The position numbers and the translations under genes are program-made. Source: Xanthomonas hydrangeae (GTDB lineage: Bacteria > Pseudomonadota > Gammaproteobacteria > Xanthomonadales > Xanthomonadaceae). From it: 64,000 nucleotides of DNA. Every line of letters begins with the position of its first letter. Within the stretch, counting starts at the first letter, position 1. Below are positions 14,488-28,729 of the stretch, piece after piece. The stretch is taken from positions 3,410,001 through 3,474,000 of the forward strand of contig LR990730.1 in assembly GCA_905142475.1 (NCBI GenBank), written 5' to 3'. The notes beneath the pieces were generated by a model. The model did no database searches and was not told the origin of the DNA. It worked only from the letters and a program-made list of their open reading frames with translations.

Positions 14488-17316
14488 GTGGATAATCTCC
14501 TAAAGCAGTTCGCACAGTCATCGCAGCTCGCCGGCGGCAACGCCGCCTATATCGAGGATCTGTACGAGCAGTACCTCGTCGCCCCGGACAGTGTCGACCC
14601 GAAGTGGAAGAGCTATTTCGATGGCTTCAAGGGTCGTGATGCCGGTGATGTGCCGCACTCGGCGGCCATTGCCCACATCCTCGCCGCCTCCAAACAGGCC
14701 GCCAATGCCGGAACCGGCGCAGGCGCCAGTGACGAGCGCGAGCGCAACGTCGGCCGCCTGATCACCGCCTATCGTGCACGTGGTCACCTCGGCGCGCAGC
14801 TCGATCCGCTCGGCCTGACTCCGCCGGTCAACCCGCCCGACCTGGACCTGCCGTTCCACAGCCTGTCGCAGGCGGATCTGGACAGCGAATTCAGCACCGG
14901 CGGCGTCGGTGGCCAGCCGCGCATGAAGCTGAAGGATCTGCTGACCCGCCTGAAGGCGACCTACGCCAGCACCATCGGCGCAGAGTTCATGCACATCCAG
15001 GAATTCGACCAGCGCCAGTGGATCTACAAGCGCCTGGAAGATGCCGGCGGCAAGATCGCCGGCGACGCGGCCAGCCGCAAGCGCACGCTGGAGCGGCTCA
15101 CCGCCGCCGAAGGCCTGGAGCGCTACCTGCACACCAAGTACGTCGGCCAGAAGCGCTTCTCTCTGGAAGGCGGCGACGCGCTCATCCCGATGATGGACGA
15201 GATCATTCGCCAGTCCGGCAACGATCAGGTCAAGGACATCGTGATCGGCATGGCCCACCGCGGCCGCCTCAACGTGCTGGTCAATACGCTGGGCAAGAAC
15301 CCGCGCAAGCTGTTCGACGAGTTCGAAGGCAAGTTCGAGCACGCCCACGACGACCGCGCCCACACCGGCGACGTCAAGTACCACATGGGCTTCTCGGCCG
15401 ATATCGCGGTCGGTGGCGACAAGCAGGTGCATCTGGCACTGGCATTCAATCCCTCGCACCTTGAAATCGTCGACCCGGTCGTGGTCGGCAGCGTGCGTTC
15501 GCGCCAGGAACGTTTCGGCGATGCCGAGCGCAAGACCGTGCTGCCGATCCTGATCCACGGCGATGCCGCATTTGCCGGCCAGGGCGTGGTGATGGAGCTG
15601 TTCCAGATGTCGCAGGCGCGCGGTTTCGCCGTCGGTGGCACCGTGCACATCGTGGTCAACAACCAGATCGGTTTCACCACCAGCGCCCGCGACGATGCGC
15701 GCTCCACGCTGTACTGCACGGACGTGGCCAAGATGATCGGCGCGCCGGTCTTCCACGTGAACGGCGACGACCCGGACGCGGTGATGTTCGTGTCCAAGCT
15801 GGCCTACGAATTCCGCCAGCAGTTCAAGAAGGACGTGGTCATCGACCTGGTCTGCTACCGCCGTTGGGGCCATAACGAGGCCGACGAACCGGCAGCGACC
15901 CAGCCGGTGATGTATCAGACCATCCGCAAGCACAAGACCACCCGCGAGCTGTATGCCGCCAAGCTGGAAAGCGAGGGCGTGCTGAGCGCCGACGAGGCCA
16001 AGGCGCTGGTCGACGGCTACCGCAACAAGCTCGATTCGGGCGAATACACCACAGAGCTGGCGACGCGCAAGCCGGACGAATTCGCCATCGACTGGTCCAA
16101 GTATCTGGTCGGCACCGCGGCCGATCCGGTCGACACCCGCGTCAAGCGCGAGCAGCTGGACCGTCTGGCCAAGCTGATCACCACGATCCCGGAAGGTGTC
16201 GAGCTGCATGCGCGCGTGGCCAAGATCTACGACGACCGCGTCAAGATGGCCGCCGGCGAGCAGGCCGGCGACTGGGGCTTTGCCGAGAACCTGGCCTACG
16301 CCACCTTGCTGGCCGAAGGCCACAAGCTGCGCCTGGTCGGCCAGGACGCCGGTCGCGGCACCTTCTTCCACCGTCACGCGATCCTGCATGACCAGAAGAC
16401 CGACAGCTACCACCTGCCGCTGCGCCAGCTGGTGCAGAATCCCGAAGACGCCACCATCATCGACTCGCTGCTCAGCGAAGAAGCGGTGATGGGCTTCGAA
16501 TACGGCTACTCCACCACCGACCCGAATGCGCTGTGCATCTGGGAAGCGCAGTTCGGCGACTTCGCCAACGGCGCGCAGGTGGTGATCGACCAGTTCATCG
16601 CCGCCGGTGAAGCCAAGTGGGGCCGCATCGCGGGCCTGTCGCTGTTCCTGCCGCACGGCTACGAAGGCCAGGGCCCGGAGCATAGCTCCGCACGCCTGGA
16701 GCGCTTCCTGCAGCTGTGCGCGCTGGAGAACATGCTGGTCTGCGTGCCGACCACGCCGGCGCAGTGCTTCCACATGATCCGCCGCCAGATGCGCATGACC
16801 ACCCGCAAGCCGCTGGTGGTAATGACGCCCAAGTCGCTGCTGCGCCACAAGCTGGCGGTATCGAGCCTGGAAGAACTGGCCGAGGGGCAGTTCCAGCACC
16901 TGATTCCCGACGCCAAGGCCGATGCCGGCAAGGTCAAGCGCGTGGTGCTGTGCTCGGGCAAGGTCTATTACGACCTGCTCGAAGACCAGACCAAGCGTGG
17001 CCAGGACGATGTCGCCATCCTGCGCGTGGAGCAGCTGTATCCGTTCCCGCGTGCGCAGCTGGCCGCCGAGCTCAAGGCCTATGCCAACGCCACCGACGTG
17101 GTGTGGTGCCAGGAAGAACCGCAGAACCAGGGTGCGTGGTACCAGATCCGCCATCACCTGAACTTCTGCCTGGCCAGTGGCCAGAGCCTGCATTACGCCG
17201 GCCGTGCCCGTTCGCCCTCGCCTGCCGCGGGCCATATGGCCGACCACATCGTCGAACAGCAGAAGCTGGTCGCCGATGCGCTCCTCAATCCGTTCAACGA
17301 CCAAGTCGCTGAATAA
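14488..17316 (+). CDS. sucA: 2-oxoglutarate dehydrogenase E1 component
   Basis: Thiamine-diphosphate-dependent E1 subunit (942 residues) of the 2-oxoglutarate dehydrogenase complex, producing succinyl-lipoyl-E2 in the TCA cycle. The family N-terminus is present (AYIEDLYEQYLVAPDSVDPK), followed by the ThDP-binding region (IGMAHRGRLNVLVNTLGK, HVNGDDPDAVMF) and the C-terminal transketolase-like domain (FLPHGYEGQGPEHSSARLER). The start codon is GTG at 14488. It is the first gene of sucA-sucB-lpd, with 42 bases to sucB. Length equals the usual 930-945 residues. Confidence 0.97.
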   Translation: MDNLLKQFAQSSQLAGGNAAYIEDLYEQYLVAPDSVDPKWKSYFDGFKGRDAGDVPHSAAIAHILAASKQAANAGTGAGASDERERNVGRLITAYRARGHLGAQLDPLGLTPPVNPPDLDLPFHSLSQADLDSEFSTGGVGGQPRMKLKDLLTRLKATYASTIGAEFMHIQEFDQRQWIYKRLEDAGGKIAGDAASRKRTLERLTAAEGLERYLHTKYVGQKRFSLEGGDALIPMMDEIIRQSGNDQVKDIVIGMAHRGRLNVLVNTLGKNPRKLFDEFEGKFEHAHDDRAHTGDVKYHMGFSADIAVGGDKQVHLALAFNPSHLEIVDPVVVGSVRSRQERFGDAERKTVLPILIHGDAAFAGQGVVMELFQMSQARGFAVGGTVHIVVNNQIGFTTSARDDARSTLYCTDVAKMIGAPVFHVNGDDPDAVMFVSKLAYEFRQQFKKDVVIDLVCYRRWGHNEADEPAATQPVMYQTIRKHKTTRELYAAKLESEGVLSADEAKALVDGYRNKLDSGEYTTELATRKPDEFAIDWSKYLVGTAADPVDTRVKREQLDRLAKLITTIPEGVELHARVAKIYDDRVKMAAGEQAGDWGFAENLAYATLLAEGHKLRLVGQDAGRGTFFHRHAILHDQKTDSYHLPLRQLVQNPEDATIIDSLLSEEAVMGFEYGYSTTDPNALCIWEAQFGDFANGAQVVIDQFIAAGEAKWGRIAGLSLFLPHGYEGQGPEHSSARLERFLQLCALENMLVCVPTTPAQCFHMIRRQMRMTTRKPLVVMTPKSLLRHKLAVSSLEELAEGQFQHLIPDAKADAGKVKRVVLCSGKVYYDLLEDQTKRGQDDVAILRVEQLYPFPRAQLAAELKAYANATDVVWCQEEPQNQGAWYQIRHHLNFCLASGQSLHYAGRARSPSPAAGHMADHIVEQQKLVADALLNPFNDQVAE

Positions 17317-17358
17317 CTCCTCTTCCCCAAAGAACGAAAACCCTAGGACGCTCCCCGA

Positions 17359-18573
17359 ATGGCCACCGAAGTCAAAGTTCCGGTACTGCCCGAATCCGTT
17401 TCCGACGCCACCATCGCCAGCTGGCACAAGAAGGCCGGTGAAGCGGTCAAGCGCGACGAGAATCTGGTCGACCTGGAAACCGACAAGGTCGTGTTGGAAG
17501 TTCCTTCGCCGGTCGACGGCGTGCTGAAGGAAATCAAGTTCGAAGCCGGCAGCACCGTCACCAGCAACCAGATCCTGGCGATCATCGAAGAAGGCGCCGT
17601 GGCTGCGGTCGCACCGGCCGACGAGAAGAAGGCCGAAGCACCGGCGCCGGCCGCTGCTGCCCCGGCCGCCGCGCCGGCCCCGGCTGCTGCCGCTGCGCCT
17701 GCTGCTGCCTCCAAGTCCGCTGCCGATGCGCTGCCACCGGGTGCGCGTTTTTCCGCGATCACCCAGGGCGTGGATCCGGCCCAGGTCGAAGGCACCGGCC
17801 GTCGTGGCGCGGTGACCAAGGAAGACATCGTCAACTTCGCCAAGGCCGGCGGCGTGGGCAAGGCGTCCGGCGCCCGTCCGGAAGAGCGCGTGCCGATGAC
17901 CCGCGTGCGCAAGACCATCGCCAAGCGCCTGATGGAGTCCAAGAACTCCACCGCGATGCTGACCACCTTCAACGAGGTCAACCTCGCCAAGGTCTCGGCC
18001 GCGCGCAAGGAACTGCAGGACGAGTTCCAGAAGGCGCACGGCATCAAGCTCGGTTTCATGAGCTTCTTCGTCAAGGCCGCCGCCAACGCGCTGCAACGCT
18101 TCCCGCTGGTCAACGCCTCGATCGACGGCGACGACATCATCTATCACGGCTACAGCGACATCTCGATCGCGGTGTCGACCGAGAAGGGCCTGGTTACGCC
18201 GGTGCTGCGTAACGTCGAGCGCCAGTCGTTCGCCGATGTCGAACAAGGCATTGCCGACTACGCCGCCAAGGCGCGCGCCGGCAAGCTGGGCCTGGACGAT
18301 CTGCAGGGCGGCACGTTCACCATCACCAACGGCGGCACCTTCGGCTCGCTGCTGTCCACCCCGATCATCAACCCGCCGCAGAGCGCCATCCTGGGCATGC
18401 ACGCGATCAAGGAACGTCCGATCGCAGAGAACGGCCAGGTCGTGATCGCGCCGATGATGTATCTGGCGCTGTCCTACGACCACCGCATCATCGACGGCAA
18501 GGATTCGGTGCAGTTCCTGGTGGACATCAAGAACCAGCTGGAAAACCCGGGCCGGATGTTGTTCGGTCTGTAA
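17359..18573 (+). CDS. sucB: Dihydrolipoyllysine-residue succinyltransferase (E2 of 2-oxoglutarate dehydrogenase)
   Basis: E2 core of the complex, 404 residues. An N-terminal lipoyl domain (lipoyl Lys in [13 protein letters not shown], near residue 43) is followed by an Ala/Pro-rich flexible linker (about 85-120), a peripheral subunit-binding domain (about 125-160, [20 protein letters not shown]) and the acyltransferase core. The core ends with the catalytic motif [13 protein letters not shown] near residue 375. A single lipoyl domain is normal for SucB. It follows sucA directly; lpd comes next after an intervening repeat. Confidence 0.97.
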
Positions 18574-18576
18574 GAG

Positions 18577-18707
18577 CCGGGAATCGGGAATGGAGAGTCG
18601 GGAATGGGACAAGCGCCCATCGACCGCTCCATTCCCGCCTGGACCTGGATGGGGCGCGACAGGCGCGTGCGCTGTTGCGATTCCCCATTCCCTATTCCCC
18701 ATTCCCG
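18577..18707. repeat. Intergenic element with GGGAATCGGGAATGG-type inverted ends (copy 1)
   Basis: The left end reads CCGGGAATCGGGAATGG and the right end (18681-18707) is made of the reverse-complement units TTCCCCATTCCCTATTCCCC. It separates sucB from lpd and reaches to within 13 bases of the lpd start. Related elements occur at 20159-20375, 32849-33002 and 41151-41304, with a one-sided copy at 31681-31713. Confidence 0.75.
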
Positions 18708-18710
18708 TGA

Positions 18711-20156
<1,446 letters not shown>

Positions 20157-21100: not shown

Positions 21101-21703
21101 ATGGCGACGATGCTCGATACCCTCGCCGCTGACGCGCACCACAGCCTGGACATCAAGCACAGTCGCTTTCTGGCCAACGCTGCTGCATTGGACGCTCCCG
21201 CGCATGCGCTGGAGATCGTGCAGCGCGTGTCTGTTGCAGATGCCACCCACAACTGCTGGGCATACCGGTTTGGGCAGGAGTACCGCTCCAGCGACGACGG
21301 CGAGCCCAGCGGCACTGCCGGGCGGCCGATCCTGGCCGCCATCGATGGCCAGGGCTTTGATCGCGTGGTGGTGGTGGTCACGCGTTGGTACGGCGGTATC
21401 AAGCTGGGCGCCGGCGGGCTGGTACGTGCCTACGGTGGCGCAGCGGCCGAATGCCTGCGGCTGGCGACACGGCAGCCATTGATCGCGTTGTCGCTGCTCG
21501 ACCTGCAGTGCCAGTTCGACGACCTGGGCCTGGTGCATGCCGCACTGAGCGCGTTCCATGCCGACAAGCTGGATGAACATTTCGACGCCAATGGCGCCGC
21601 GCTACGCGTGCAATTGCCTGCCGATCAACTGGCTGGCTTGAAAACCCGCCTGTGCGACGCCACTCGCAACCGTGTCCACCTCTCAACACCGGAAGCCGCA
21701 TGA
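21101..21703 (+). CDS. YigZ/IMPACT family protein
   Basis: About 200 residues. The IMPACT N-terminal domain is clear (SLDIKHSRFLANAAAL, ATHNCWAYRFG, SSDDGEPSGTAGRPIL, VVVVVTRWYGGIKLGAGGL, VRAYGGAA), followed by the short YigZ C-terminal domain. The family is linked to translation control in eukaryotes and has no settled bacterial role. The frame is open from 21017, but MATMLDTL at 21101 (or ATG 21110) is where family homology begins. The stop overlaps the ABC exporter start by ATGA. Confidence 0.9.
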   Translation: MATMLDTLAADAHHSLDIKHSRFLANAAALDAPAHALEIVQRVSVADATHNCWAYRFGQEYRSSDDGEPSGTAGRPILAAIDGQGFDRVVVVVTRWYGGIKLGAGGLVRAYGGAAAECLRLATRQPLIALSLLDLQCQFDDLGLVHAALSAFHADKLDEHFDANGAALRVQLPADQLAGLKTRLCDATRNRVHLSTPEAA

Positions 21704-23466
21704 ACCAGCCAGCCGCCAGGCCCAACCCATTGCGGAAGCTCGGCAGCCTGCGCACCTTGTGGCCGTTCGTACAACGCCAGCGCGGCTTGTTCGCCGCCTG
21801 GCTGATCGCGCTGGCAGTGTCTTCGGCCGCCACGCTGAGCCTGCCGGCAGCGGTCAAGCAGATGATCGACCACGGTTTCTCCGGCGGTTCTCAGATCAAT
21901 CAGGCCTTCGCGCTGTTGTTTGCGGTGGCGGTGGTGCTGGCACTGGCCACGGCCGCGCGCTTTTACTTCGTCGCGTTGCTGGGCGAAAAAGTCGTCGCCG
22001 ATCTACGCGGCCGGTTGTATGCGCATCTGATCGGGCTGGACGCCGGCTTTCATGATCGCAGCCGCAGCGGCGAGCTGGTCTCGCGCCTGTCGGCCGACAG
22101 CGAGCTGCTGCGTGGAGTGATCGGCACCACCATGTCGGTGGCGTTGCGCAGCTCGGTGACGGTGATCGGCAGCATGGTGATGCTGTTCGTCACCAGCCCG
22201 CGGCTGGCCGGGTTCACGCTGATCGGCATCCCGCTGGCAGTGCTGCCGATCGTGCTGGGCGCACGCCGCCTGCAGAAGATCTCGCGCGCGAGCCAGGACC
22301 GTGTGGCCGACGCCAACACGCTGGCCGCCGAAACGCTGGGCGCGGTGCGCACCGTGCAGGCGCATACGCGCGAAGGCTACGAAAGCCACCGTTTCAGCCA
22401 GGCCTTGCTGGCGGCGATCGAAACCGCGCGGCTGCGCATCCGCACCCAGGCCACCGTCACTGCGGTGGCGATCATGCTGATTTTCGGGGCGATCGTCGGG
22501 GTGCTGTGGCTGGGTGCGCACGATGTGATCGGCGGGCGCATGACGCCCGGCACGCTGGGGCAATTCGTGTTGTACGCGTTGATCGGCGGTGGTTCGGTCG
22601 GCGCATTGGCCGAGGTCTGGAACGAGTTGCAGCGCGCGGCCGGCGGCATGGGCCGCGTTGGCGAATTGCTCGACGAACAACCGGCCATCGTCGCACCGGC
22701 CACGCCGCAGCCATTGCCGCAGCCGCTGCGCGGTGCGATCCATTTCGATCAGGTGGTGTTTCATTATCCGCAGCGCCCCGATGCGCCTGCCCTGGATCAC
22801 TTCGATCTGCATGTCCTTCCGGGCGAAACCGTGGCGCTGGTCGGGCCCTCCGGCGCCGGCAAGAGCACGGTGCTGTCGATGTTGCTGCGTTTCCACGACC
22901 CTGTCAGCGGCAAGCTGCGCATCGACGATGTGGATCTGCGCGACACCGACCCGGTGCTGCTGCGCGAACGCATTGCCTTGGTGCCGCAGCAACCCACGCT
23001 GTTTGCCGCCAGCGCCGCCGACAACATCCGTTATGGGCGCCTGGAAGCGAGCGATGCGCAAGTGGAGGCCGCTGCCGTTGCCGCCGAAGCCGATGTCTTC
23101 ATCCGCGCCCTGCCCCAGGGCTATGCCAGCGAACTCGGCGAACGCGGCGCACGCCTGTCCGGCGGCCAGCAGCAGCGTGTGGCGATCGCGCGTGCATTGC
23201 TCAAGGACGCGCCGATCCTGCTGCTGGACGAGGCCACCAGCGCGCTGGACGCGCAAAGCGAGCGTGCCGTGCAGCAGGCGCTGGACCGGCTGATGGAAGG
23301 CCGCACAACGCTGGTCATCGCCCATCGCCTGGCCACCGTACTCAAGGCCGACCGCATCGTGGTGATGGATGCCGGCCGCATCGTCGCGCAGGGCACGCAT
23401 GCGCAATTGATTGCCGAAGGCGGCCTGTATGCAGAGCTGGCACGCCTGCAGTTCATCGATCAATGA
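21700..23466 (+). CDS. ABC exporter, fused membrane and ATPase domains (MsbA/lipid-exporter type)
   Basis: A 588-residue half-transporter. An N-terminal six-helix membrane domain (about 30-320) is followed by a fully intact ATPase: Walker A VGPSGAGKST near 381, Q-loop VPQQPTLFA, signature LSGGQQQR near 486, Walker B LLLLDEATSALD near 506 and H-loop VIAHRL. It probably works as a homodimer exporting a lipid or hydrophobic compound. It is translationally coupled to yigZ (4-base overlap). It could also be a heterodimer partner for the ATPase-dead ABC protein at 24572-26260, but a separate LysR gene lies between them. Confidence 0.92.
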   Translation: MNQPAARPNPLRKLGSLRTLWPFVQRQRGLFAAWLIALAVSSAATLSLPAAVKQMIDHGFSGGSQINQAFALLFAVAVVLALATAARFYFVALLGEKVVADLRGRLYAHLIGLDAGFHDRSRSGELVSRLSADSELLRGVIGTTMSVALRSSVTVIGSMVMLFVTSPRLAGFTLIGIPLAVLPIVLGARRLQKISRASQDRVADANTLAAETLGAVRTVQAHTREGYESHRFSQALLAAIETARLRIRTQATVTAVAIMLIFGAIVGVLWLGAHDVIGGRMTPGTLGQFVLYALIGGGSVGALAEVWNELQRAAGGMGRVGELLDEQPAIVAPATPQPLPQPLRGAIHFDQVVFHYPQRPDAPALDHFDLHVLPGETVALVGPSGAGKSTVLSMLLRFHDPVSGKLRIDDVDLRDTDPVLLRERIALVPQQPTLFAASAADNIRYGRLEASDAQVEAAAVAAEADVFIRALPQGYASELGERGARLSGGQQQRVAIARALLKDAPILLLDEATSALDAQSERAVQQALDRLMEGRTTLVIAHRLATVLKADRIVVMDAGRIVAQGTHAQLIAEGGLYAELARLQFIDQ

Positions 23467-23583: not shown

Positions 23584-24483
23584 ATGCCCCGCCCTAGAAC
23601 CACCATTCGCCAACTCAGTTACTTCGTCGCGCTCGCCGATACCGGAAGTTTCACCCGCGCCGCCGAGCAGATGGGCGTGTCGCAACCCTCGCTGTCCCAG
23701 CAGATCCGCGCCTTCGAAACCATCATCGGTGCAGCGCTGTTCGAGCGCGGCGTGCCGGCCATCCTGACGCCGCTGGGACGCGACCTGCTCGACCGCGCGC
23801 GCAGCATCCTGTTGGACGTGGCCGATCTGGAAGACGTGCGCGCCACCTCGGCCGACACCTTGATCGGCACCATTCGGCTGGGCGTGTCGCCGACGCTGGG
23901 CGCCTACCTGATGCCGAGCCTGGTCGCGCGCCTGCACCGCGAACACCCGGCGCTGCGCGTGCATGTGCGCGAGGGCTTGCCGACGGTGCTCGCCGCAGGC
24001 CTGGCCAGCGGCGTGCACGATCTGATCCTGGCGCAATTGCCGGTGGCTGGACGCGGCCTGCATAGCGAACGGCTGTTCCGCGAACCGCTGCATGTGACCA
24101 TGGCCGCCGATCACCCATTGCGTGCCAAGACCTTCATTACCCCAGCCGATCTGCGCGGCGCCAATTTGTTGACCTTGATGCCCGAATACCGTCTGGCCGA
24201 GCAGGTCGCGGCGATCGCCATGGACGTCGGCGCCAATGTCTTGCGCGATTACGAAGGCACCAGTCTGGATGCGATCCGGCAAATGGCCGGCATGGGCATG
24301 GGTCTTGCACTCTTGCCAGACCTGTATGTCCGCCAGGAAATCCGCGAGGGCGACGATGTCGTCGTTCGGCCGATCAAGGGCGGACGCTACTATAGGGAGA
24401 TCGGGCTGTTGTGGCGGCAAGGCGCAGGACGCGCGCCGGCCTTTGGTCTGATCGCCAATCTCCTGCGTGCGGTAGCCGCATAG
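23584..24483 (+). CDS. LysR-family regulator, OxyR-like sequence without cysteines
   Basis: A 299-residue LysR-type regulator. The winged HTH is at the N-terminus (TIRQLSYFVALADTGSFTRA, GVSQPSLSQQIRAFE), followed by a type 2 periplasmic-binding-like effector domain. The effector domain resembles OxyR/hydrogen-peroxide-inducible activators (MAADHPLRAK, EGTSLDAIRQMAGMGMGLAL), but no Cys occurs anywhere in the protein, so the OxyR disulfide switch is impossible. It lies directly upstream of the ABC-HlyD-TolC cluster on the same strand, which it may regulate. The inducer is unknown. Confidence 0.88.
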   Translation: MPRPRTTIRQLSYFVALADTGSFTRAAEQMGVSQPSLSQQIRAFETIIGAALFERGVPAILTPLGRDLLDRARSILLDVADLEDVRATSADTLIGTIRLGVSPTLGAYLMPSLVARLHREHPALRVHVREGLPTVLAAGLASGVHDLILAQLPVAGRGLHSERLFREPLHVTMAADHPLRAKTFITPADLRGANLLTLMPEYRLAEQVAAIAMDVGANVLRDYEGTSLDAIRQMAGMGMGLALLPDLYVRQEIREGDDVVVRPIKGGRYYREIGLLWRQGAGRAPAFGLIANLLRAVAA

Positions 24484-24571: not shown

Positions 24572-26260
24572 ATGGCGGGCAAGCAGATCGGATGGCGGGA
24601 AGCGGGAGCCTGGCTGGCGGAGATCGTCGGGCCGGACATGCCGTATGTGCGTCTGGCCATGGTGTATGGCGTGGCGATCAGCCTGCTGTCGCTGGCCACA
24701 CCGATCTCAGTGCAGTTGCTGATCAACAGCGTGGCCAACACCGCGCTGCCCGCGCCGCTGTGGACGCTGTCGAGCCTGCTGCTGGGGCTGTTGCTGCTGG
24801 TGGCCGGCCTGAGCGCGATGCGGGTGTGGGTCATGGCGCTGTTCGAGCGCCGCCTGTTTGCGCGCGTGGTCTCGGAGATCACGGTCCGCGCGGTACATGC
24901 GCAAAATCCGTTCTTCGCCGATCAGAACCGCGGCGACATGTTCAATCGCTACTTCGATTTGGTGGTGGTGCAAAAAGCCGTGCCGAGCCTGGCGATCGGC
25001 GCCTTCACCATCGTGCTGCAATCGGCGGTCGGGCTGATACTTACCAGCTTCTATCACCCGTTTTTTCTCGGTTTCAACGCGTTGTTGCTGCTGGTCATCT
25101 TCGGCATCTGGATGATCTGGTCGCGCGGTTCGATCCGCACTGCGGTCGATCTGAGCCATGCCAAGCACGAGGCCGCACGCTGGCTGGAAAGTGTCGGCGG
25201 CTCCAACGGCTTCTATAAATCCAGCCGCCATCTCAATTTCGCGATGGACCGCTCCGAAGCCGTCACTGCAGCTTATGTCGACCGGCACCGGCGCCATTTC
25301 CGCTACAGCTTCACGCAGACGGTGGCGTTTTTGCTGGTCTACGCGGTGGCCAGCGCAGCCTTGCTGGCGCTGGGCGGCAACCTGATCCTGCGCGGCGAGC
25401 TGTCGATCGGCCAGCTGGTCGCCGCCGAACTGATCCTCAGTGCGGTCTTCTACGGCATCTCGCAACTCGGTGGTTATCTGGACGCGTTTTACGACCTGGT
25501 GGCGAGCTCGGAAGAGCTGTCGCTGCTGTTTGCGATCCCGCAGGAACGCGCCGTCGTTGCGCGTGGCAAAACGCCTGGCAACAGCGCGGTGCGCCTGGAT
25601 GGCGTGGTGATCGACGGCGCACGTTTCGATTTTTCGCTGGCCGCTGGCGAGCAGCTGGTGACGATCGCCGATGGCGGTGCGGAGCGGCTGCTGGCGATGA
25701 TCCTCAAGCGCCACGTGGTGCCCGATCGCGGGCTGGTGATGGTGGGCGGCGCAGACATGGCCACCTTCGACATGTATCTGCTGCGCTCGGAAGTGACGGT
25801 GCTCGACCGGCCGACCATTGTCGAGGTCACCATCCGCGAATATCTGGCGCTGGCGTCTGCCGATGTGACTTCGGAGGCGATGCTGGAAGCGATCGATGCG
25901 GTTGGGTTACGCGGCCGCATCGCCGCACTCCCGCAAGGTCTCGATACGCGCCTGGCCGCATCGGGCTACCCGTTGTGGATCGGCGAAGTGATGGCGCTGA
26001 AGCTGGCCAATGCGCTGCTGGTACGCCCGCGCGTGCTGATGCTGGCGCAGGTGTACGATCTGATTCCCGCCGATCGGCTGACCGATGTATTGCGTCGCCT
26101 GAAAGATGCCGGCACCACGGTGCTGCTGTGCACCGGCAGGCCGGAAGACATCACCCTGGATGGCTGGTTCCACCTGCAGCCCGAGCGGCAGCAGCGCTTT
26201 GCCACGCGCGCCGAATTGATCGCAGCGACGCAGGAGGCGAACGATGCAGCACGCTCCTGA
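24572..26260 (+). CDS. ABC exporter-like protein with degenerate (ATPase-dead) nucleotide-binding domain
   Basis: A 562-residue protein with an N-terminal six-helix ABC exporter membrane domain (about 25-325) and a C-terminal domain that keeps the outline of an ABC ATPase but none of its catalytic motifs. The Walker A position reads GEQLVTIADGGAERLLAM (about 359-376; no GKS/T). The signature region reads SGYPLWIGEVMALKLANALL (no LSGGQ). Walker B reads RVLMLAQVYD (Asp-Glu replaced by Ala-Gln), and the H-loop reads LLCTGRPED (His lost). Typical spacer features such as LPQGLDTRL remain. The gene overlaps an HlyD-type adaptor by 17 bases, followed by a TolC-type gene, as in type I secretion. No C39 peptidase domain is present. 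Confidence 0.85.
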   Translation: MAGKQIGWREAGAWLAEIVGPDMPYVRLAMVYGVAISLLSLATPISVQLLINSVANTALPAPLWTLSSLLLGLLLLVAGLSAMRVWVMALFERRLFARVVSEITVRAVHAQNPFFADQNRGDMFNRYFDLVVVQKAVPSLAIGAFTIVLQSAVGLILTSFYHPFFLGFNALLLLVIFGIWMIWSRGSIRTAVDLSHAKHEAARWLESVGGSNGFYKSSRHLNFAMDRSEAVTAAYVDRHRRHFRYSFTQTVAFLLVYAVASAALLALGGNLILRGELSIGQLVAAELILSAVFYGISQLGGYLDAFYDLVASSEELSLLFAIPQERAVVARGKTPGNSAVRLDGVVIDGARFDFSLAAGEQLVTIADGGAERLLAMILKRHVVPDRGLVMVGGADMATFDMYLLRSEVTVLDRPTIVEVTIREYLALASADVTSEAMLEAIDAVGLRGRIAALPQGLDTRLAASGYPLWIGEVMALKLANALLVRPRVLMLAQVYDLIPADRLTDVLRRLKDAGTTVLLCTGRPEDITLDGWFHLQPERQQRFATRAELIAATQEANDAARS

Positions 26261-27329
26261 TCGCAACACGCACTTCCCCACCCTGGCGGCGATGCGCCCA
26301 CCCAGCATCGCCAAGGCGCTGGCGTGGATGCTGCTGATCGGCATTGCCATTGCCAGCGCGATCCTGGCGCTGGCGCCGTGGGTGCAGACCGCCAGCGGCA
26401 AGGGCCAGGTGGTGGCGCTGGATCCGGGCGACCGCCAGCAACAGGTCACCGCCTTCGTGCCCGGCCGGGTCGAGCGTTGGTATGTGCACGACGGCCAGCA
26501 TGTCTCGCGCGGCGATCCGATCGCGCGCGTCGGCGATCTGGATCCGGACCTGCTCACCCGCCTGGCCAGCGAACGTGCGCAGGTGCAGGCCGAGATCGCC
26601 GCGATCCAGCAATCGCGTGCGGTTGCCAGCATCGACGTGGCACGTAGCAGGCAATTGCTTGCCGAAGGGCTGGTCGGCCGCCGCGACTTCGAGCTGACCC
26701 AGATCAAGGTCGCCGAGGCCGACGCCAAGCTGGCCGAATCGCGCGCCAAGCTGACCCGTATCGACATCCAGTTGAACCGCCAGTCCGCACAGCTGGTGCG
26801 CGCACCGCGCGACGGCCGCGTGCAGCAGCTCAACGCCGCCAGCGGCAGCGCGATGGTCTCGCCCGGCACGGTGCTGGCGGTGATCGCGCCGGAGCGGGTG
26901 GAGCGCGCGGTCGAGTTGTACATCGACGGCCGCGACGTGCCGCTGATCCGCCCCGGCCGCCCGGTGCGGCTGGAGTTCGAAGGCTGGCCGGCGATCCAGT
27001 TCAGCGGCTGGCCGTCGGTGGCGCATGGCATGTTCGACGGCCGCGTGCGCGCGATCGACCCCAACGCCGCGTCCGATGGCCTGTTCCGCATCCTGGTCGA
27101 ACCGCAGCCGGGCAAGCCGGCCTGGCCGGCACGCGAGTTCGCCCGCCAGGGCGGCAAGGTGCGCGGCTGGGTGCAGGGCGAAACGGTGAAGGTCGGCTAC
27201 GAATTGTGGCGCCAGCTCAACAACTTCCCGCTGGAATTCGGCCGGCGCCCGGCAGCGGCGACGCAGGATGAGGGCAAAGCCAAACCGGCAGCGTCCAAGG
27301 CCGAAGACGACGAGACCGGCAAAAAATGA
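26244..27329 (+). CDS. HlyD-family periplasmic adaptor (membrane fusion protein)
   Basis: A 361-residue adaptor for a tripartite exporter. One membrane anchor lies at about residues 25-47, followed by a lipoyl half-motif (VVALDPGDRQQQVTAFVPGRV, then VHDGQHVSRGDPIARV), a coiled-coil region (about 85-170, rich in Ala, Glu, Arg) and the returning half (RAPRDGRVQQLNAASG). The tail is Lys/Glu-rich. It overlaps the ABC gene by 17 bases and the TolC gene by 4, so the three are one translational unit. The sequence fits type I secretion adaptors; the cargo is unknown. Confidence 0.88.
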   Translation: MQHAPDRNTHFPTLAAMRPPSIAKALAWMLLIGIAIASAILALAPWVQTASGKGQVVALDPGDRQQQVTAFVPGRVERWYVHDGQHVSRGDPIARVGDLDPDLLTRLASERAQVQAEIAAIQQSRAVASIDVARSRQLLAEGLVGRRDFELTQIKVAEADAKLAESRAKLTRIDIQLNRQSAQLVRAPRDGRVQQLNAASGSAMVSPGTVLAVIAPERVERAVELYIDGRDVPLIRPGRPVRLEFEGWPAIQFSGWPSVAHGMFDGRVRAIDPNAASDGLFRILVEPQPGKPAWPAREFARQGGKVRGWVQGETVKVGYELWRQLNNFPLEFGRRPAAATQDEGKAKPAASKAEDDETGKK

Positions 27330-28729
27330 TCCGCCGTCTTGTCTTCTTGCTGATCGCGCTCGCGCCGGGCGCGGCGGTGGCCCAAACCACTGCGCTGACC
27401 CTGGACGAAGTGCTGCAGTCCTCGGCTCGCTCCGCGCCGCAGATTGTCGAATCGCTGGCCAAGGTCCGTCAGGCCGAAGGCAAGGGCATGTCGGCCGATG
27501 GCGCGTTCGATACCGTGTTCGATATCGACGGCCGTTCGCGCGAGGCCGGCTATTACGACGGCAGCGCGATCGAAAGCACGGTCAAGCGGCCGTTCGATAA
27601 CAACGGCGGTTATTACTACGGTGGTTACCGCTCCTCGCGTGGTTCGTTCCCGGTCTACGAAGACAAGTCCTATACCGACCGCGGCGGCGAAGTAAAAGTG
27701 GGCGCGCTGTATGCGCTGTTGCGCGACCGCGTGGTCGACGAGCGTCGCACCAAACGCAGCGTTGCCAGCGCCGACATCGATGTCGCCCAGTACGAAGCCG
27801 AAATGGTGGCCATTGGCGTGCAGCGACGCGCGGTGGATGCTTACCAGAGCTGGGTCGCGGCCGGCCTGAAACTGCGCGCGTATAACGACCTGCTGCAACT
27901 GGCCGAGCAACGCCGCAACGCGATTTCGCGGCAGGTGACGCTGGGCGCGCGGCCGACCATCCTGCTGACCGAAAACGACCAGAACCTGGTACGCCGACGT
28001 GCGCTGGTGGTGCGTTCGGAGCAGGACTTCGCCAACGCGGCCAATGCCTTGTCGCTGTATCTGCGCGACGACACCGGCATGCCGCTGGTCGTCTCCAGCG
28101 AGCGCCTGCCGGCCGATACCTCGGCACTGGAAGGCCTGGCCGGCGCCAGCAAGATCACCGCACCGGTAGAGCGCCCTGATTACCGCGCCGTGTTGACCCG
28201 CATCGACCAGGCCACCGCGCGGCTGATGCTGGCGCAGAACGATCTCAAACCCCGCCTGGATGTGAGCCTGGAAGTCAGCAAGGATCTGGGAGAACCCGGC
28301 GTCGGCGGCCCGAACCGCTCGCCCACCGATGCCATCATCGGCTTCCGTTTCAGCGTGCCGCTGGAAAACCGTGCCGCCAAGGGCCGCGTTGCCGAAGCGC
28401 GCGCCGAGATCGAAGCGCTGGATCAACGCAGCCGTTACCTGCGCGACCAGATCTCGGTGGAAGTCGAGTCGGTGGTCATCTCGCTCAACGCCGCCGAGCG
28501 CCTGGCCAAGATCGCCGACGAAGAACGCAGCCTGGCCGACCGTCTCGCTGCGGCCGAGCGGCGCCGCTTCGAGCTGGGGTCGGGCGACTTCTTCCTGGTC
28601 AATCAGCGCGAAGAAACCGCCAACGATGCCCGTGTGCGCCTGATCGATGCACAGGCGCGGATTGCCTCGGCCCGCGCTGAGCTGGCAGCGGCCACGGCTG
28701 ATCGGGATGCGTTGCAGCTGAGTCGTTGA
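27326..28729 (+). CDS. TolC-family outer membrane efflux protein
   Basis: A 467-residue exported protein with signal peptide (MIRRLVFLLIALAPGAAVAQ). It has the duplicated helical pattern of TolC: TALTLDEVLQSSARSAPQI opens the first half, and AARLMLAQNDLKPRLDVSLE with a coiled helix region opens the second. A Tyr/Gly-rich insertion (GYYYGGYRSSRGSF) lies in the putative beta-barrel part of the first half. It would form the outer membrane exit of the ABC-HlyD-TolC assembly. Coupled to the HlyD gene by a 4-base overlap. Confidence 0.88.
   Translation: MIRRLVFLLIALAPGAAVAQTTALTLDEVLQSSARSAPQIVESLAKVRQAEGKGMSADGAFDTVFDIDGRSREAGYYDGSAIESTVKRPFDNNGGYYYGGYRSSRGSFPVYEDKSYTDRGGEVKVGALYALLRDRVVDERRTKRSVASADIDVAQYEAEMVAIGVQRRAVDAYQSWVAAGLKLRAYNDLLQLAEQRRNAISRQVTLGARPTILLTENDQNLVRRRALVVRSEQDFANAANALSLYLRDDTGMPLVVSSERLPADTSALEGLAGASKITAPVERPDYRAVLTRIDQATARLMLAQNDLKPRLDVSLEVSKDLGEPGVGGPNRSPTDAIIGFRFSVPLENRAAKGRVAEARAEIEALDQRSRYLRDQISVEVESVVISLNAAERLAKIADEERSLADRLAAAERRRFELGSGDFFLVNQREETANDARVRLIDAQARIASARAELAAATADRDALQLSR

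Follow-up and report, generated by a model that had tools for sequence, protein, structure and literature searches.

Within a 64,000-nucleotide stretch of the Xanthomonas hydrangeae genome (contig LR990730.1, positions 3,410,001 to 3,474,000; hereafter the window, with coordinates counted from its first base), three overlapping genes on the forward strand were found which encode a predicted trans-envelope exporter with a dead ATP site. The first gene (24572..26260, + strand) encodes a protein of 562 amino acids with the fold of an ATP-binding cassette (ABC) exporter and a degenerate ATPase domain; it consists of a membrane domain (residues ~1-335) followed by the dead ABC domain (residues ~340-562). 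It overlaps by 17 nucleotides a gene for an HlyD-family periplasmic adaptor with a short hairpin (26244..27329, + strand; 361 amino acids; PF13437, PF13533 and PF16576), which in turn overlaps by 4 nucleotides a gene for a TolC-family outer-membrane channel with an OEP domain (27326..28729, + strand; 467 amino acids; PF02321, E 2.1e-31). The initial annotation had placed this trio at 24572-28729; its coordinates and frames were confirmed and the four motif strings quoted there were all present. Upstream of the three-gene operon, in the same direction, is a gene for a LysR-type regulator (23584..24483, + strand; PF00126 and PF03466) which travels with the cassette, and further upstream is that of an intact MsbA-related exporter (21652..23466, + strand; TIGR02204, 865 bits), probably outside the system. 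The host genome is 5.58 Mb in size; its nearest relatives are X. hortorum L035 and L041, whose ABC protein is 99% identical.

The Pfam scan of the ABC protein did not detect ABC_tran, and ABC_membrane scored 26.3 bits, under its 28-bit cut-off. NCBIfam models of the type I secretion system (T1SS) aligned to residues 10-551 with low scores (TIGR01846, 91.1 versus 725.55 bits; TIGR03375, 82 versus 693; TIGR01842, 70 versus 510). Residues 340-562 alone, for which the initial annotation had proposed a profile search, matched solved ABC domains (best phmmer E 3e-26), and a profile of 41 dead domains aligned with one of 53 intact domains with a probability of 99.8% (hhalign, E 2.5e-30). The whole protein matched P-glycoprotein-like and HlyB chains, and a 33-row family profile covered both domains of HlyB (8dck, 141-677; E 6.5e-36). 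Judged from its sequence, the C-terminal part of the protein is an ABC ATPase domain, and the protein has the membrane-then-ABC architecture of an exporter.

The ATP site itself has been lost. Degenerate versions were located of Walker A (GEQLVTIADGGAERLLAMI; 25646..25702, + strand), of the signature (PLWIGE) together with Walker B (RVLMLAQVYD; 25961..26059, + strand) and of the switch-histidine region (TVLLCTGRPEDIT; 26117..26155, + strand). In 53 intact relatives (56 sequences minus those shorter than 550 amino acids and L003) the Walker A lysine, Walker B aspartate, catalytic glutamate and Q-loop glutamine were present in all 53 and the switch histidine in 52, while not one of these five residues was kept in any of 44 aligned orthologs (the window protein, 25 further Xanthomonas and 18 sphingomonad proteins). 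The Q-loop position is a gap in all 44 rows of that alignment, with aspartate, asparagine and serine the commonest residues in another alignment. The signature serine is replaced by tryptophan in the 26 Xanthomonas rows and is kept in 15 of the 44. The replacement of Walker A, LSGGQ, Walker B and the H-loop described in the initial annotation was thus borne out, and the protein lacks what a functional ABC ATPase needs, namely Walker A and B, Q-loop, signature and switch histidine. As none of the 44 orthologs retains any of the five residues, the losses are not local damage.

The possibility that the gene is a decaying pseudogene, or the product of sequencing damage, can be regarded as already refuted. 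Among 35 Xanthomonas genomes, 32 have an open ABC frame and three a broken one, namely X. axonopodis DSM 3585 (L065) and X. phaseoli ATCC 49119 (L076), both among the named records and both left out of the ortholog alignment, and a 4.1 Mb Xanthomonas genome (G1351, C1:2227194-2228320). These breaks favour decay; the 32 open frames, a ratio of non-synonymous to synonymous substitution rates (dN/dS) of about 0.1 and identical losses in other bacterial classes speak against it. In Xanthomonas (20 sequences, 190 pairs), dN/dS was 0.090 for the membrane domain and 0.108 for the dead domain, compared with 0.078 for HlyD, 0.080 for TolC, 0.072 for LysR and 0.071 for the intact MsbA-related exporter; in Sphingomonas (nine ABC sequences, 36 pairs) the values were 0.114 and 0.207 for the membrane and dead domains, respectively. 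The dead domain is somewhat more relaxed than the other parts, yet far from neutral, and is under purifying selection. It is almost certain that an ATPase-dead exporter has been maintained in evolution, which upholds the view in the initial annotation of a maintained pseudo-ATPase.

Among named genomes, 45 loci were detected, of which 27 were in Xanthomonas and 18 in Sphingomonas, Sphingobium or Novosphingobium; whole frames were present in 43, and the sphingomonad orthologs were 61-84% identical to the window protein. The gene was present in all 35 Xanthomonas genomes tested, each with a single family copy (in some cases in pieces). Within the bacterial family to which the window belongs (297 genomes), 40 matches were obtained, 18 from the same genus at 86% identity or more and 22 from other genera at 24-27%. 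Among 298 Sphingomonadaceae genomes 37 matched, the weakest (G316) being an intact ABC protein, so that the cassette is in 36, and in the alpha-proteobacterial class three of 385 genomes carried the family, all of them sphingomonads already found. Profile searches added relatives in 13 further gamma-proteobacterial genomes among 369, and a gamma-proteobacterial relative (L158), used as query, had matches in 90 of the 251 genomes searched in its order. No match to the family was found in phage records at E 1e-10. The ABC-HlyD-TolC order was seen again in most alpha- and gamma-proteobacterial loci examined and in one annotated Bacteroidota record; loci without the full trio were cut by contig ends or had an unrecognised partner frame (for example L180-L182, L227 and L243). 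In L180-L182, which are three related genomes, a dead ABC-HlyD pair is followed by consecutive frames of 481 and 473 amino acids to which the TolC model gave no match.

In a tree of the membrane domain (71 rows) the Xanthomonas rows were nested among sphingomonad rows. A LysR gene 64-87% identical to that of the window was directly upstream on the same strand in 12 of the 18 sphingomonad loci, at 84-87% in seven of them, and copies of the cassette were found on 15 plasmid records from Sphingomonas, Sphingobium, Novosphingobium, Croceicoccus and Sphingopyxis. The regulator-plus-operon cassette appears to have been horizontally acquired and, because the Xanthomonas rows are nested in the tree, the transfer probably ran from a Sphingomonas-like donor to Xanthomonas. 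On plasmid pNL2 of Novosphingobium aromaticivorans DSM 12444 (L246), a non-pathogenic strain, the cassette (SARO_RS19820-19810) is near a second, MarR-HlyD-MFS efflux operon; its ABC homolog, SARO_RS19820, shows 61% identity. In one Xanthomonas genome (G265, C1:1834706-1838859) only ~700 bases separate the ABC and MsbA-related genes, which is too short for a full LysR gene, and the regulator may be lost there.

The state of the ATP site was compared across the wider family in 100 rows, representing 99 genes since rows L158 and L196 are two readings of one gene, the former being shorter; L155, which had no usable frame, was replaced by L174. Group P (n=33) is the window's own; G (n=8; seven gamma-proteobacterial and one sphingomonad) and M (n=6, including L158) are more divergent and mostly dead; the proteins of T (n=30, including L196) are mostly ~700 amino acids long, and those of B (n=20), at ~560, are intermediate. 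From the 90 genomes matched by L158, 30 loci plus 20 chosen among the more distant matches were examined. Sampling was uneven, with close relatives over-counted, and in the most divergent rows the columns depend on the alignment; on this footing the Walker A lysine was found in 1/33 P, 0/8 G, 2/6 M, 30/30 T and 8/20 B rows, the Walker B aspartate in 0/33, 0/8, 3/6, 30/30 and 17/20, the catalytic glutamate in 0/33, 1/8, 1/6, 5/30 and 3/20, and the switch histidine in 0/33, 1/8, 1/6, 0/30 and 5/20, respectively. The Q-loop glutamine was present in 0 of 97 family rows (53 of 53 intact), and lysine, aspartate, glutamate and histidine were all kept in only two of the 100 rows. The ABC domain, with at least 187 residues beyond the membrane domain, was retained in every row. 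The Bacteroidota relatives Riemerella (L248) and Persicobacter (L249) were also degenerate.

No close ortholog with intact Walker motifs, which the initial annotation had named as evidence against its view, was found; near-intact members (L242, L243 and nearly L245) are confined to deep branches. Together these form clade C (B rows L242:4217-5968, L243:822-2570 and L245:4003-5772), which has the P-loop, Walker B aspartate and switch histidine, without the Q-loop glutamine. The relatives of mostly ~700 amino acids (L177:8586-10655 and L196-L225) have an extra N-terminal segment and a kept P-loop, with no catalytic glutamate in 25 of 30 and no switch histidine in any; in the one typed, Pfam was blank over the first 170 residues. 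They are perhaps ATP-binding, non-hydrolysing exporters, and the pattern in group T suggests that in part of the family ATP binding may have outlived hydrolysis. This would suit a domain whose classical motifs are gone but which still binds nucleotide or another phosphate ligand and changes conformation, but in group P the Walker A lysine column is glutamate, glutamine or aspartate in 31 of 33 rows and the Walker B aspartate is never kept, and such residual use of nucleotide is improbable.

Two membrane-domain residues set the family apart from intact exporters, with transmembrane (TM) positions taken from hydropathy only. Glu286, in predicted TM6 (GQLVAAE; codon 25427..25429, + strand), is glutamate in 100 of 100 rows and in none of the 53 intact exporters, 41 of which have asparagine there; in the 50 loci derived from the L158 matches this TM6 motif had itself served to select the frames, and it was present in every locus. 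His162, in the predicted TM3-TM4 hairpin (FYHP; codon 25055..25057, + strand), is histidine in 97 of 100 rows, and mostly serine (39/53) in intact exporters. The three rows with Ser162 are exactly clade C, the sole rows combining a P-loop lysine with a switch histidine. Gln150 is also typical of the family (94/97 rows versus 0/53 intact exporters).

A careful tree of 50 rows was calculated after removal of positions 286 and 162 from the alignment. The family formed a single clade apart from the intact exporters (100/99), within which the near-intact clade C grouped with the degenerate Bacteroidota relatives (R; 99/98) and both of these then with M (99/96). Because of these two branches, the catalytic residues would have been lost at least three times, unless clade C regained them. 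Glu286 appears to predate the losses at the ATP site, all of which are in proteins that bear it. The best tree favours independent loss in P+G and in M, but neither one clade of P+G+M (p 0.154) nor one of all His162 rows (p 0.347) was rejected by the approximately unbiased (AU) test. In a quick tree of 93 rows, without Bacteroidota, clade C was a separate branch near the base.

The periplasmic partner was compared in 18 adaptor sequences chosen by hand. Two gaps of 46 alignment columns shorten the hairpin in all 11 adaptors from P, G and M (329-382 amino acids) and in none of the seven from T, B, C and R (434-452 amino acids), and the shortening may have been one event. The periplasmic part has therefore changed in the most decayed groups. 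The TolC gene gave 19 bits with the NodT model and 11 bits with the T1SS TolC model, both far below the cut-offs.

In the sphingomonad and Xanthomonas loci compared, the only common frames were LysR, ABC, HlyD and TolC, although a small peptide or an unlinked gene product may still be exported. Seven large linked genes were considered as a shared substrate and rejected, with no common neighbour among those typed: phosphoenolpyruvate carboxylase in L228, L229 and L240 (930-940 amino acids), TonB-dependent receptors in L057, L071 and L072, and UvrA in L186. The operon adjoins the phosphoenolpyruvate carboxylase gene in several genomes of one gamma-proteobacterial order, three of which (L228, L229 and L240) were typed. 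Type I secretion exporters (HlyB, LssB and PrtD) have the same membrane-then-ABC layout, with HlyD and TolC partner genes in an operon, but here the ATP site is dead and no linked substrate was found. As no linked substrate gene was found, the adaptor is short and a LysR gene is linked, the exporter probably handles a compound of small or medium size. Elsewhere in the window, long minus-strand frames antisense to likely genes, such as that at 14518-18714 (1398 amino acids, partly opposite a 404-amino-acid frame at 17359-18573), look more like high-GC frame shadows than like genes.

Transport could in principle be driven by another ATPase, if the dead protein forms a dimer with an intact ABC exporter whose gene lies elsewhere and which then powers the HlyD-TolC conduit. 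ABC exporters that are heterodimers with a single degenerate site are familiar; in TAP, TM287/288 and BmrCD, catalytic residues are lost in one ABC domain, as they are here, the degenerate half retains Walker A, and the partner, often the product of an adjacent gene, is intact. The signature serine, which remains in 26 of 33 group P rows and 15 of the 44 close orthologs, would fit such a pairing. In this family, by contrast, Walker A is lost and no intact partner was found in the operons. With the Walker side gone and the signature side much damaged (the serine being tryptophan in Xanthomonas), a heterodimer would have no complete composite site. Beside the family member itself, none of 41 listed loci showed a further recognisable ABC exporter frame and, with one family copy per Xanthomonas genome (35/35), there is no intact family paralog to pair with. 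An intact HlyB-type exporter was ruled out as obligate partner, as eight of 35 cassette-bearing Xanthomonas genomes had no match (E 1e-100) to the window genome's own copy, one of the eight being only 81% complete.

The initial annotation had suggested the intact exporter at 21700-23466 as the source of power. The MsbA-related gene belongs to the same superfamily and, in all 34 Xanthomonas genomes where it was found, shares a contig with the dead gene at a distance of no more than ~1.3 kb. Its ATP site is intact, unlike that of the dead protein, and it was not found in any of the 18 sphingomonad cassette loci, some of which are cut by contig ends; 17 had no match at E 1e-5 and L058 had only a 27% partial match. 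An intact exporter was thus seen next to the dead gene in Xanthomonas but not in the sphingomonad loci or the 41 listed loci. Away from the cassette, a copy 51-54% identical was present in 11 of 15 cassette-bearing genomes, with weaker matches in the other four. The gene is near-universal in Sphingomonadaceae (142/149), whereas only 36 of 298 genomes have the cassette, and co-occurrence is therefore uninformative. Since the two genes do co-occur, the MsbA-related exporter may act in trans, but the case for it is weak and nothing marks so widespread a gene as a specific partner; a partner ATPase of either kind seems unlikely.

Of the three mechanisms proposed in the initial annotation, a different energy source appears best supported, given the TM6 glutamate and the TM3/4 histidine. 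The favoured reading, at a rough probability of 0.45 and argued by analogy, is that a tripartite exporter has swapped ATP for an ion gradient and kept its dead ABC domain as a clamp. An inner-membrane ABC-fold dimer, the HlyD-type adaptor and the TolC-type channel would form a dedicated exporter without ATP hydrolysis, protonation of Glu286, possibly aided by His162, would couple transport to a gradient of protons (or another ion), and the dead ABC domains, still docked on the membrane domain, would serve as a dimerising clamp. The membrane-domain carboxylate present in every row is consistent with proton-coupled transport by an ABC fold.

Precedents come from three published reports. The membrane domain of LmrA without its ABC domain (LmrA-MD) is described as carrying out ethidium-proton symport, and its TM6 substitution E314A as abolishing dependence on the pH gradient but not on the potential (PMC2704374). 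Efflux by the corresponding part of MsbA (MsbA-MD) is described as powered by the pH gradient (PMC4979069), and SbmA as a transporter of ABC ancestry that is driven by protons and has a ladder of glutamates (PMC13316013). LmrA-MD and MsbA-MD are laboratory truncations which indicate that an ABC exporter membrane domain can use a proton gradient, with a TM6 carboxylate mattering in LmrA; natural LmrA and MsbA are active ATPases, whereas here the natural protein itself is without an ATP site. The SbmA/BacA-like SLiPT proteins likewise have an ABC-exporter-derived membrane domain with intramembrane glutamates and no ATP hydrolysis, but they import peptides and have neither an ABC domain nor coupling helices, whereas in this family all 100 rows retain the domain and the partner genes suggest export.

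Several points weigh against an ion-driven exporter. Glu286 is a putative equivalent of E314 of LmrA, and its role could be in folding, substrate binding or adaptor contact instead of proton coupling. The near-intact members have Glu286 too, so that this residue alone is no marker of the loss of ATP use, and the association of His162 with the state of the ATP site is one phylogenetic contrast, its three exceptions being one clade. The AU test did not reject one clade uniting the fully dead groups P+G+M (p 0.154). Retention of the ABC domain, unlike in SbmA, would be odd if it were functionless. That retention, and the fact that nothing in the sequence speaks of active transport, would also suit a scaffold, valve or gated channel, in which the dimer anchors the conduit, opens passively down a gradient or senses a ligand. 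The membrane domain is, however, slightly more constrained than the dead domain in both genera, and invariant or near-invariant polar residues in or beside predicted TM segments suggest a working translocation path; a passive role of this kind is considered unlikely.

It is possible, and suggested here tentatively, that the family has been caught in the middle of a conversion to ion-driven transport, in which the TM6 glutamate came first, the ATP site then decayed at least three times and to different depths, and the dead domains were retained as structural clamps. Living members would then show each stage, from near-intact through ATP-binding only to fully dead.

No existing description of such an exporter family was found in a literature search covering open-licence PubMed Central papers, and this widespread trans-envelope exporter family of Alpha- and Gamma-proteobacteria and Bacteroidota is apparently undescribed. 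Cassettes of this kind can escape surveys of secretion systems. In an X. arboricola study, the two pv. juglandis strains examined are reported to be without all of the type I systems studied (PMC12448352); another X. arboricola pv. juglandis strain carries the dead-ABC gene (L038). ABC exporters are textbook ATP-driven pumps, and the question of how a primary pump becomes a secondary one has so far been approached through truncated LmrA and MsbA and through SbmA, in which the domain is wholly lost. A natural, conserved and repeatedly evolved ATPase-dead version at the head of an HlyD-TolC conduit would, if the favoured reading is true, show a primary pump turning secondary.

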